Positions 24,107-28,258 of a stretch of 64,000 nt of DNA are shown here, piece after piece (within the stretch, counting starts at the first letter, position 1; every line of letters begins with the position of its first letter). Both the position numbers and the translations under genes were made by a program. The notes below the pieces were generated by a model that did no database searches, was not told the DNA's origin, and was given only the letters and a program-made list of their open reading frames with translations. The stretch comes from Candidatus Poribacteria bacterium (GTDB lineage Bacteria; Poribacteria; WGA-4E; WGA-3G): the NCBI GenBank assembly GCA_022825665.1, contig JAJDWI010000086.1:1-64000 (forward strand), written 5' to 3'.

Positions 24107-24326
24107 CATGAAAACTTTGGAAGAACCGATTTGATCTACTTTTTGAATAACTACTTGATTACCTACATTTAAAACTTTTTACTTCTGAGTTCTCCCCACA
24201 AAACTAACTTTTTCCCAACAGCGTTTACACTAAGAACTTCTTCAACAGAGGATTGGAAACCCATCTATTTTGATGGACTGTTCGGTTTAAGATTGTAATC
24301 ATGTTTGTGAATATTTACCAAACGTT

Positions 24327-24858
24327 GCGGTGTGAAAGCCCAATGCTTTAGATTTGGGATGAAACACCGCCAAACGTCTCCTTCGTTAAAAATAACCTTG
24401 ATTTTATCCAAGAAATGTGGTATCCTATTTATACCAACTGGATAGGAGAGCAATCATTCACTACCTTGTGAATGTCCTATCCAATCCGATTGCTCGGACA
24501 GAGTTGGTGTTGGAAAAACCGACAATACCATATTCGGACTATACTTATGAGGTTATGATCCTCACTTCGTTTATGATGAGTTCTGAAATCGCATCATAGA
24601 GATCGTGTAGGTGTTCCCTACCCGACCGCGATAGAAACAGAACGCCAAGAAAAAGTATCTGGGTCGCGCATTTGGGGAATATACGGACCCCGTTAGTCGT
24701 GCCTTGGCGGGCACCCCCGCAGTTGCTGCAACGGTCAACTCGGCTTAAAACTGAGTGAGTATGCTATAAGCATATAAAAGATGCCCACATTTTCAAAATA
24801 CGCAAGGCGTGAGAAGATGACCTAAGGAACCCCAATCCTTTAGGTTTGGGAGCCGTCA
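24327..24858 (+). mobile_element. degenerate IS200/IS605-like element without transposase
   Basis: The right end shows the typical IS605 terminal hairpin (24830-24850, CCCAATCCT-TT-AGGTTTGGG) followed by AGCCGTCAG. A related hairpin with the same CCCAA..CTTTAG..TTGGG core and an outer stem GCGGTGT/ACACCGC lies at 24327-24370 and would be the left end. Between them is densely structured sequence (stems at 24434-24507, GTGCC/GGCAC near 24700, ATGCT/AGCAT near 24763). An interrupted reading frame ending near 24747 (AFGEYTDPVSRALAGTP) could be the tail of a tnpB-like gene. No intact TnpA or TnpB is present. It abuts and truncates the beta-helix gene. In the 797-base gap 24043-24839, I recognise nothing in 24107-24326. 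Confidence 0.5.
24434..24507 (+). ncRNA. pseudoknot-capable structured segment, possibly from an omega-RNA-like transcript
   Basis: Four perfect complementarities occur in 74 bases. CCAACT (24434-24439) pairs with AGTTGG (24502-24507). GGATAGGA (24440-24447) pairs with 24475-24482. GAGCAATC (24448-24455) pairs with 24488-24495. ATTCAC (24456-24461) pairs with 24468-24473. The second and third pairings cross, so they form either a pseudoknot or alternative folds. TnpB guide RNAs also precede the IS right end and are structured, but the identification here is inference. Confidence 0.4.
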
Positions 24859-25424
24859 GTATCTCCATACAGGTAAACACCTCCTCCAATATCAGAACCT
24901 GCACGGTTGCCCTTTATTATACAGGATGATAGATATAAATTAGAATCAATACAATATATTCCACCCCCGGTTCCACTGGAATCAAAAAAATCTCCTGCGC
25001 TGTTTTCAGTTATGACACAGTTTCTAATTGTTGGTGAGGAATTGTTACAATATATACCAGCCCCATTTAGATGTAATCCATTTGTTATAGTGAATCCATC
25101 TAATACCGAGTTGTTGGTTTCTCTGCTGTGGAATATGAATCCTCTTGTTTTTTCCTTTCTTTTACAATCAATTATTGTCACCTCTGGACCATTTTGAGAC
25201 TTAAGTGTTATCTGTTTCCCTTTGAAATCAATGTTTACATTTCCTATACCTTTGTAAACACCATCAGCAACTAATACAGTATCACCATCTATTGCTGTAT
25301 TAATACCTGCTTGTATTGTAGGATGTTCAGCAGGCACACGAATCACTGCTGCAAATGTATGTACATTGGCGAAAAGTAATAATAGAATAATCATTATATT
25401 GACAATAACCCTACTAAATTTCAT
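24840..25424 (-). pseudogene. secreted parallel beta-helix protein, truncated by the IS605-like end
   Basis: I chose the ATG at 25424, which has GGAGG 7 bases upstream; the ATG at 25436 overlaps the previous gene. The roughly 194-residue product has a signal peptide (about 1-26) and then the same N-terminal block as its two upstream paralogues: VPAEHPTIQAGI, GDTVLVADGVYKG.GNVNIDFKGKQI and VLDGFTITNG. It stops after about five helix turns, and the last residues GSQT are encoded by the IS605-like hairpin. The paralogues have 463-470 residues and end in GKR..WAD.KR, which is missing here. No remainder is recognisable beyond the element. Confidence 0.75.
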
Positions 25425-25426
25425 GA

Positions 25427-26839
25427 TTACCTCCATCTATTATGTCTATGGTCCTTTCGTTTTATATCTGCCCATCTTAACAACCGTTTACCAACAGGTA
25501 CAACACTTAGGGCACCTCCAACCGAAGTTTGTGGTCCCATACCTAATACTGGACTATCTCCCCTAAGCCTATAGTCTCCTCGGTCAGGATTTCTAAAAAG
25601 TGGATCCATATCTATGTTGTCTTCATAAACAAACAAATTTCCATCAGGTTCTTGTCCAATATGATCGAGTCCATCCCTAATAACGTTTGATTTAAATACT
25701 ATCCCTCTACCAGCAACAAATACCTCAGGATTTCTGTCATCCGAATTATTACCCCAGACAATTGAATTAGTTAACTTAAATGAGGTTAAACTAAAAACAT
25801 ATAAACCACCACCTCTCTCGCTTGCAGTATTCCGCGTGATAGTGCAATTACTAATTTCTGCATATCCATGCTTAGACTCACCGACTTCAATTCCACCACC
25901 CCACCTTGTGGCTATGTTTTCAGCTATAATACAGTTAGAAACTTCGATAATTCCTGATGGACTACAGTAAATTCCTCCACCGTTTTTTGCTGTGTTTTGT
26001 CTGATGTATGAATTGTCGATCTTTATTCTGGAATACTCACTTGCTTCCAAACCACCCCCAGTGTTTTGGGCAATTTCACAATTTGTAATGAATGTGGTAC
26101 CTGCAAAAAATGAACATACAACACCGCGTAAACTATTATGTAATATCTTAGAATCTTTGATTTCACAACTGACGAAATCCAGTATATGAACGCCACTGCC
26201 AGTATTCTCTGAAATAATACAATTGATTAGTTGCGGTTGAAAATACGTGTCTCTAAATCCACCATCAATTTCATTACTTCCATCAAAGTATATTCCACCA
26301 CCATACGTGTATTCTGCAATATTGTTTGATATTGTAGAATCAATTATTATTGCTTCAGAATTGAAACAATATATTCCACCACCCCGTCCTGTACCACTTT
26401 CGTCCCTAAGTGCTTTGTTCCATGAAATGACACAATTCTTAATTGTTGGAGAAGCATTATTGCAGTAAATCCCACCACCATTTAAATCTCTACCATTTTT
26501 AATAGTAAATCCATCTAATACTGATGTATGTGTTTCTTCATTTTGAAAGGTAAAACCACGCGTATTTGGGGTCCACAAACAGTTGATAATTGTCCCTTCA
26601 GGTCCATTCTTGGACTTAACTATAATCTGTTTTCCCTTAAAGTCTATGTTGACATTACCGTCACCTTTGTATACTCCATTAGCAACTAAAACCGTATCCC
26701 CGTTTTGTGCAGAGTCAATACCCGCTTGAATTGTTGGTTGATCGGCAGGTACATTAATTGTTACAGCATAGGTTGAGATATTCACACAAAGCAAAATTAT
26801 ATAGATAAAGATGTGGACACAAAATCTATTAATGTTCAT
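25427..26839 (-). CDS. secreted right-handed parallel beta-helix protein (pectate-lyase-like fold)
   Basis: This 470-residue precursor has a signal peptide (about 1-26) and the block VPADQPTIQAGIDSAQNGDT..VANGVYKGDGNVNIDFKGKQI. About 12 beta-helix rungs of the form GGGIYC..S....I.NC.I..N.A follow. The C-terminus has LSVVPVGKRLLRWADIKR, shared with the paralogue at 26867-28258. Such proteins bind or cleave polysaccharide or act as adhesins; the enzymatic residues of pectate lyases are not evident. AGGAGG precedes the ATG. The last codons provide the ribosome-binding site of the next copy (stop 25427, start 25424). Confidence 0.85.
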   Translation of the reverse strand: MNINRFCVHIFIYIILLCVNISTYAVTINVPADQPTIQAGIDSAQNGDTVLVANGVYKGDGNVNIDFKGKQIIVKSKNGPEGTIINCLWTPNTRGFTFQNEETHTSVLDGFTIKNGRDLNGGGIYCNNASPTIKNCVISWNKALRDESGTGRGGGIYCFNSEAIIIDSTISNNIAEYTYGGGIYFDGSNEIDGGFRDTYFQPQLINCIISENTGSGVHILDFVSCEIKDSKILHNSLRGVVCSFFAGTTFITNCEIAQNTGGGLEASEYSRIKIDNSYIRQNTAKNGGGIYCSPSGIIEVSNCIIAENIATRWGGGIEVGESKHGYAEISNCTITRNTASERGGGLYVFSLTSFKLTNSIVWGNNSDDRNPEVFVAGRGIVFKSNVIRDGLDHIGQEPDGNLFVYEDNIDMDPLFRNPDRGDYRLRGDSPVLGMGPQTSVGGALSVVPVGKRLLRWADIKRKDHRHNRWR

Positions 26840-26866
26840 GTAATCCTCCTAATCTTACGCCACTAT

Positions 26867-28258
26867 TTAGTTACGCTTCAGGTCTGCCCATTTAATTATT
26901 CGTTTCCCTGTAGAGGACACACTAAGAGAATCCTCAATAAAATTCTCTTCCCCTTGATCATTTGCTTCTTGATCCTCTTCTTCACGGGATGCGGTTGCTC
27001 CCATTTCTGTTGCCGGACTTACACGTTTAAGTGTATAATTCCCATTCTCAGCATTTACGAACAGTGGGTCTTCATCAATGCTATCTTTATAAACAATAGA
27101 TTTAGCCCATTGCTCCCCAAATCCTTCAAGTCCGCCTCGTAAAACACATGAAATAATACGAACTGTTGGACCAGCTCCGAAAAATTCTGGGTGAGTACCA
27201 TTTGATGTATTGCCCCAGATAATAGATTTAGTGCATTTGAAGGTTGAACCTTCAAGAAGAGCATGCACCCCGCCACCTCTATTATTCGCTGAGTTTCTTG
27301 TAATTGTACAATATGATATGTTTACATGTCCAAAGGTAGAAATAGAATCAATACCACCACCAGATTCTGTTGCTATGTTCTCTGCAATAACACATCCAAT
27401 AACGTTAAGCCTTGATGTTGGACTACAAAGGATACCGCCACCGTTTTCAGCTGTATTCTGTTTGATAATTGAATCAGTAATTGTTAAACCGGAATATTCC
27501 CTACATTCAACACCACCATCCAAGTTCTGTGAGATTATACAATTCGTAATTTTTGCACCTGAAAAAGAGTTACAAAAAATACCCCGACCAATGTTTTGAG
27601 AGACTGTGCTTTTTGTTATTGTTGCGGATGCATGAAGTAAACAATAAATTCCATGTCCTTTATTTTCAGATATATCACAATTGATTAGATTCGGTCCACT
27701 AATAGGTTTTTCTATTACCTCACCATTCCTTGTATCCGGTTCTAAAATCAGGATACCATTGCCATCTCGGTTGTTTGTAATCTGACAGTCAATTATTTTA
27801 GCCTCAGAAACAATACAGAATATTCCACCACCGCTGTTATCCGTTATAATACAATTCTTTATCGTCGGTGACGAAACATCACAAAAGATTCCACCACCAT
27901 CACTATTATTTCCATTCTTAATTGCAAAACCCTCTAACACAGTATCATTGGTTTCCTTATTTTGAAAAATAAACCCTCGTGAATTTGGTGTGGATAGACA
28001 GTTGATTATAGCTGCCTCTGGACCATTCTGTGATTTTAAGGTAATTTGTTTACCCTTGAAATCTATGTTAGTATTACCTTCACCACTATAGATTCCATCA
28101 GCAACTAAAACCGTATCACCGTCTTTTGCAGCATCAATGCCTGCTTGAATTGTCGGCTGATCTGAAGGCACTTGAACCACCGCTGCAAATAGAATCGCAT
28201 TTACACATAAACAACAAATTACGATTGATATATACAGAAAAGTTTTATAGATATTCAT
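26867..28258 (-). CDS. secreted right-handed parallel beta-helix protein, paralogue
   Basis: The 463-residue precursor has a signal peptide (about 1-26), the shared opening VPSDQPTIQAGIDAAKDGDTVLVADGIYSGEGNTNIDFKGKQI, then beta-helix rungs (NGGGI.C..S....I.NC.I..N). An acidic linker (EEEDQEANDQGEEN, about 420-438) leads into the tail LSVSSTGKRIIKWADLKRN. This is the first gene of the tandem trio, with GGAG before the ATG and 31 bases to prfB upstream. The family is probably exported to the surface or periplasm. Ligand and activity are unknown. Confidence 0.85.
   Translation of the reverse strand: MNIYKTFLYISIVICCLCVNAILFAAVVQVPSDQPTIQAGIDAAKDGDTVLVADGIYSGEGNTNIDFKGKQITLKSQNGPEAAIINCLSTPNSRGFIFQNKETNDTVLEGFAIKNGNNSDGGGIFCDVSSPTIKNCIITDNSGGGIFCIVSEAKIIDCQITNNRDGNGILILEPDTRNGEVIEKPISGPNLINCDISENKGHGIYCLLHASATITKSTVSQNIGRGIFCNSFSGAKITNCIISQNLDGGVECREYSGLTITDSIIKQNTAENGGGILCSPTSRLNVIGCVIAENIATESGGGIDSISTFGHVNISYCTITRNSANNRGGGVHALLEGSTFKCTKSIIWGNTSNGTHPEFFGAGPTVRIISCVLRGGLEGFGEQWAKSIVYKDSIDEDPLFVNAENGNYTLKRVSPATEMGATASREEEDQEANDQGEENFIEDSLSVSSTGKRIIKWADLKRN

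Follow-up and report, generated by a model that had tools for sequence, protein, structure and literature searches.

Results

A protein-less IS200/IS605-type element

The window, i.e., the whole stretch of 64,000 nucleotides analyzed here, corresponds to contig C81 of genome G000, a sponge-type member of Candidatus Poribacteria. It contains three adjacent beta-helix genes (24840-28258), and a complete IS200/IS605-type element of 541 bases (24319-24859), delimited by sequence reading and alignment of copies, is inserted near the 3' end of the first of these genes. The last codons and the stop of this gene are supplied by the element. The order of features is a TTAC target, a left-end hairpin, promoter-like sequence, approximately 425 nt of structured sequence, a right-end hairpin, and GTCAG (Table 1). 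No protein gene lies inside the element; complete tnpA and tnpB genes are absent, as stated in the original prediction, which had been made from the letters of the window.

Table 1. Features of the element and its insertion site (window coordinates)
Feature	Position	Strand	Basis or remark
Target tetranucleotide TTAC	24315-24318	+	Upstream of every copy in the left-end class of the window element
Left end with subterminal hairpin (24327-24370)	24319-24380	+	Identity to left ends of tnpB-bearing elements
Promoter-like sequence, sigma70-type, TTGATT-17-TATCCT, with TGG ahead of the second hexamer	24398-24426	+	Conservation across copies
5' RNA module: outer stem, P1 (GGATAGGA/TCCTATCC), hairpin, loop-loop pairing	24433-24508	+	Covariation
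Middle RNA domain	24509-24652	+	Limited to the tnpB-less family; compensatory changes in helices 8-10
OmegaRNA-like scaffold	24653-24824	+	Match to model R1 at 24690-24824, 155 bits
Extra hairpin between scaffold and right-end hairpin	24788-24819	+	Compensatory changes in helix 16
Right end: hairpin CCCCAATCC-TTTAGG-TTTGGG and terminal GTCAG	24830-24859	+	Kept in all copies
Expected guide, right flank TATCTCCATACAGGTAAACA	24860-24879	+	Inferred from TnpB omegaRNA architecture
Beta-helix ORF	24840-25436	-	Expected guide near its 3' end

The IS200/IS605-type identity that had been predicted is supported by the target, the ends and the copies. Subterminal hairpins are present and terminal inverted repeats are absent. 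Insertion is 3' of a short specific target, TTAC or TTAT, which is found upstream of all copies in the two main left-end classes and is not duplicated. The predicted closure of the element by a right-end hairpin (24830-24850) and GTCAG (24855-24859) was confirmed. The ends match IS605-family elements, including tnpB-bearing ones (L023, L025 and L104), whose left ends are 93-95% identical to that of the window element. A related element that shares the target and the end and carries a Y1 tnpA is present in another genome (G047:C12). By its ends and target, the window element is thus a non-autonomous IS200/IS605 element. A guide would be expected directly 3' of the right end, from 24860, much as had been foreseen; for an omegaRNA guided by this right flank, TTAC would be the expected TAM.

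Copy number and mobility

The genome of origin contains 41 matches to the element, and homology begins and ends at the two hairpin ends. These limits identify the palindromes noted in the original prediction as the true ends of one repeated unit and not as unrelated repeats. Most of the matches sit at contig ends, as is expected of collapsed repeats. Aligned copies share the same first base after TTAC and have GTCAG as their last bases, and flanks diverge past GTCAG or its variant GTCAT; at least 12 right ends with distinct flanks were found in G000.

A single-contig Poribacteria chromosome (OY282386.1, genome G017) has 13 tnpB-less copies, with TTAT as the target and nearly all right ends reading GTCAT. 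Three of these copies are 99.1-99.8% identical, and two further pairs show 99.8% and 99.6% identity, all at different sites. A search with joined flanks revealed matching empty sites in two relatives, G009 and G006. In G009, the empty site for the L094 locus shows continuous homology through TTAT and the would-be guide bases, with no duplication. In a named-genome pattern scan, relatives occurred only in Candidatus Poribacteria among the matches listed. All genomes compared are metagenome assemblies. These sequence comparisons demonstrate precise ends, TTAC/TTAT targeting and recent multi-copy spread of the family; by this evidence, the tnpB-less family is recently mobile and the window element is not a lone remnant.

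Several variants were also observed. Internally deleted and minimal derivatives occur in relatives (L126 and L131). In L091-L103, one RNA interior is joined to at least four left-end sequence classes, which suggests module exchange between elements. A tnpB-less RNA copy in G049 (L181 / L122; G049:C24, RKRR01000161) has a strong scaffold and right end and no left-end hairpin; it should therefore be immobile and is a candidate fixed RNA gene.

Structure and conservation of the interior RNA

The densely structured, omegaRNA-like interior proposed in the original prediction was borne out by folding, covariation and scaffold homology to the 3' ends of tnpB genes (see below). Compared with 100 dinucleotide-shuffled controls, the interior is better folded (z = -3.67). 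The structure aligned over 19 tnpB-less copies has 100 pairs: 97.5% of cells are paired, sliding the partners lowers this to 43% or less, and compensatory changes on both sides occur at 35 of the 100 pairs. The structure came from the same alignment that was used for counting pairs; circularity is unlikely given the slid control and the loop pairing, which was found independently. The compensatory changes indicate that the RNA is under constraint and is not decaying.

The promoter-like sequence is located at a constant distance upstream of the RNA across copies. It matches 8 of 12 consensus positions in the window; other copies, read on the correct strand, and tnpB elements have 9-11 of 12 at the corresponding site. 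It scores below the threshold of a generic promoter scan and is absent from that scan's list, and the putative promoter call therefore rests on conservation.

The 5' module contains a loop-loop pairing between GAGCAAT (24448-24454) and ATTGCTC (24489-24495), and all seven pairs are formed in every variant (GAGCAAT, AAGCAAT, AAGCATT, GTTCCAA and ATGCAAT). Analogous pseudoknots occur in tnpB mRNA leaders: in L174, L182, L183, L184, L025, L132 and L104, a pseudoknotted 5' leader lies between the tnpB promoter and the start codon. Elsewhere in G000 (L136; G000:C113:69000-73500, minus strand), the promoter-like sequence and the 5' kissing-loop module (ATGCAAT/ATTGCAT) are found with no transposon ends and with an unrelated ORF downstream, possibly an exapted leader. 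For the 5' module, a topology like that of HDV ribozymes was rejected, as there is no P4 and no catalytic-C linker, and a long-range GGGCA/TGCCC pairing was dropped because it is broken in several copies. The middle domain had no BLAST match in tnpB elements, and no TnpB protein remnant was found in it.

Homology of the 3' domain to omegaRNA

The omegaRNA of TnpB is normally located at the 3' end of tnpB. A covariance model, R1, was built from the tnpB-less 3' domain only and run with strict filters on 85 Poribacteria genomes. Among the matches listed, the strong ones are tnpB-less copies in G000, G011, G014, G017 and G049, and 25 are weak (28-60 bits). Upstream sequence is visible in 20 of the weak ones, and 18 of these overlap tnpB 3' ends, with the stop codon within the RNA and followed by the right-end hairpin. 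Since R1 finds tnpB 3' ends, where omegaRNA sits, the 3' domain is homologous to the omegaRNA scaffold.

Aligned together, 13 tnpB-less sequences and 15 of the tnpB type, some of which lie at the start of a contig with tnpB not visible, keep 96.1% of pairs, against at most 47% when slid, and 24 of 32 pairs are compensatory. This alignment was fitted to R1, which favors the structure of the model; BLAST also finds the homology, with 64-68% identity between the 3' domains of tnpB-less and tnpB elements. These sequence data demonstrate homology between the 3' domain and the scaffold of tnpB-associated omegaRNAs, with conserved pairs. The position of the scaffold relative to the right end also fits omegaRNA architecture, yet the extra hairpin, missing from tnpB-associated versions, intervenes. 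By scaffold homology, the element carries an omegaRNA, with putative TnpB binding and guiding.

The segment 24670-24747, originally read as a possible C-terminal tail of a transposon protein, is instead a DNA-level match to the tnpB 3' end, which doubles as the omegaRNA scaffold; as TnpB protein, it was not significant against a profile of 11 cognate TnpBs. Rfam gave no match for the element at the gathering score and none at E values up to 10, and group I intron/IStron, HEARO and RAGATH-18 identities were rejected for want of such a covariance-model match.

Candidate TnpB and TnpA partners

In the TnpB clade with R1-type omegaRNA, the RuvC-I and RuvC-III Asp residues are kept and a Glu is located six residues before the zinc-finger CxxC. 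One such element on OY282386.1 (L174) shares 90.6% identity at its left end with L094-L096; the canonical RuvC-II Glu is missing from its TnpB, which has a Glu six positions ahead of the zinc-finger cysteines. Gly replaces the canonical residue and the alternative Glu is conserved in L174, L175, L179, L182-L191 and L193. Such an alternative-E (Ealt) arrangement of TnpB has been described (PMC10711439).

In G000, tnpB is represented by 5' parts (L023 and L025, with a 95% identical left end) and by three omegaRNA 3' parts (on C167, C154 and C17), the middle having been lost in assembly; the contigs with collapsed tnpB copies are C71, C72, C167, C154 and C17. A complete tnpA-tnpB-omegaRNA element in G047 (C12) has the TTAC target and the GTCAG end exactly as in the window element. 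A cognate TnpB was not detected in G014 or G049, though both carry copies. A search of G000 and OY282386.1 for a Y1 TnpA whose ends match those of the element gave none; the metagenome-assembled genome may be incomplete. A Y1 transposase of G000 (C159) was rejected as the mobilizer because its ends differ. The Y1 seen on OY282386.1 is REP-type; the best match (L141; G017:C1:1608000-1612500) has CGCTCCAGCGGAGCG palindromes on its flanks, as in REP-associated transposases.

Discussion

We consider it probable that the locus is a non-autonomous member of the IS200/IS605 family without a protein gene, that it carries an orphan TnpB-type omegaRNA and that it is a satellite of TnpA and TnpB, probably moved by the former and served in trans by an Ealt-type form of the latter. 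By analogy with known systems, we infer transcription, TnpB loading and guided cleavage. The internal promoter would drive an RNA that extends past the right end, and the flanking sequence read in this way would become the guide (TATCTCCATACAGGTAAACA here). An Ealt-type TnpB from relatives in the same cell would load this RNA and cut the TTAC (TAM)-plus-guide site restored by element excision, and repair after the cut would copy the element back and so retain it, a scheme drawn from established TnpB biology. Y1 TnpA would move the element in trans. As both enzymes would act in trans in this scheme, the element would be a satellite of each.

Some observations speak against the guide reading. 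The extra hairpin before the right end, absent in tnpB versions, could impair loading. In the genomes searched, copies are present in G014 and G049 where the cognate TnpB was not detected, and the matching Y1 TnpA was not found in G000 and OY282386.1. In a studied case, TnpB trims the 5' side of the RNA (PMC10278001), and omegaRNA function therefore does not explain the 5' and middle domains, which may have a role in stability, processing or regulation.

Protein-less IS605 derivatives are already known, their ends alone suffice for movement, and relatives include the internally deleted and minimal forms L126 and L131. These facts would suit an ordinary MITE/PATE-like derivative, moved in trans by TnpA, in which the RNA structure is a functionless inheritance from a tnpB parent. 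We regard this as unlikely, because the 35 of 100 pairs that change on both sides do so in tnpB-less copies sharing the derived middle domain, and the loop-loop pairing is complete in all variants. Neutral passengers are expected to lose pairing, which disfavors such a reading. The RNA might instead be a trans-acting regulator or decoy that binds TnpB or a factor of the shared 5' leader and dampens TnpB, or tnpB translation, with no guiding. The 5' kissing-loop module common to tnpB mRNA leaders, the extra hairpin, which may prevent guiding, and the inhibitory mRNA region reported for AmaTnpB (PMC10278001) are consistent with this role; however, the right end and the guide position have been kept whole and scaffold conservation is like that of omegaRNAs, and we think this role quite improbable.

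A decaying remnant or a single domesticated RNA gene, the cases raised in the original prediction, would agree with the lack of a protein gene within the element, and the G049 copy in which the RNA is present but the left end is missing (L181) indicates that fixation can occur. Many intact copies, recent movement, empty sites and internal base-pair conservation refute this for the family as a whole, and domestication is not indicated for the window copy, which retains both ends; we give this possibility hardly any weight.

The orphan omegaRNA element favored here resembles the TnpB omegaRNA/reRNA of IS200/IS605 (IS1341-type) elements in its homologous 3' scaffold, its right-end hairpin, its guide position beyond the right end and TTAC/TTAT at the left end. 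It differs in that it has no tnpB, that an additional hairpin precedes the right end, that there is a dedicated middle domain and that the scaffold is not within an mRNA. Palindrome-associated or MITE-type IS605 derivatives are short and protein-less, have IS605 ends and are presumably mobilized in trans, whereas the interior of the window element is mostly covarying, omegaRNA-related RNA. Stand-alone IscB omegaRNAs and HEARO RNAs without an ORF likewise have a guide RNA separate from a nuclease gene, but IscB guides are at the 5' end with another scaffold, and HEARO gave no Rfam match (E up to 10). The RAGATH-18 reRNAs are also structured TnpB guide RNAs, and 64% of them adjoin a TnpB gene, so that a part does not (PMC11061315); these belong to the IS607 family, whereas the window element has no Rfam match. 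In the literature searched, we found no direct description of nuclease-less TnpB guide elements. Both IS605 derivatives that lack protein genes and guide RNAs that stand alone have precedents; what is new here is that a mobile family carries an elaborated orphan TnpB guide RNA as its payload.

TnpB is thought to retain its own transposon in the genome via a flank-derived guide. We see an even chance that the family is a guide-RNA-only transposon, which has dispensed with both enzymes and uses an elaborated guide RNA (with the 5' kissing-loop module, the new middle domain and the extra hairpin) to program the TnpB of others in trans, protecting its insertion sites. If true, such a mobile family would show that the retention benefit of TnpB can be parasitized in trans, and it would offer a natural test of whether guided cleavage selects for element persistence. 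For the Ealt TnpBs, which have been little studied, its RNA would provide an elaborated omegaRNA variant of natural origin.
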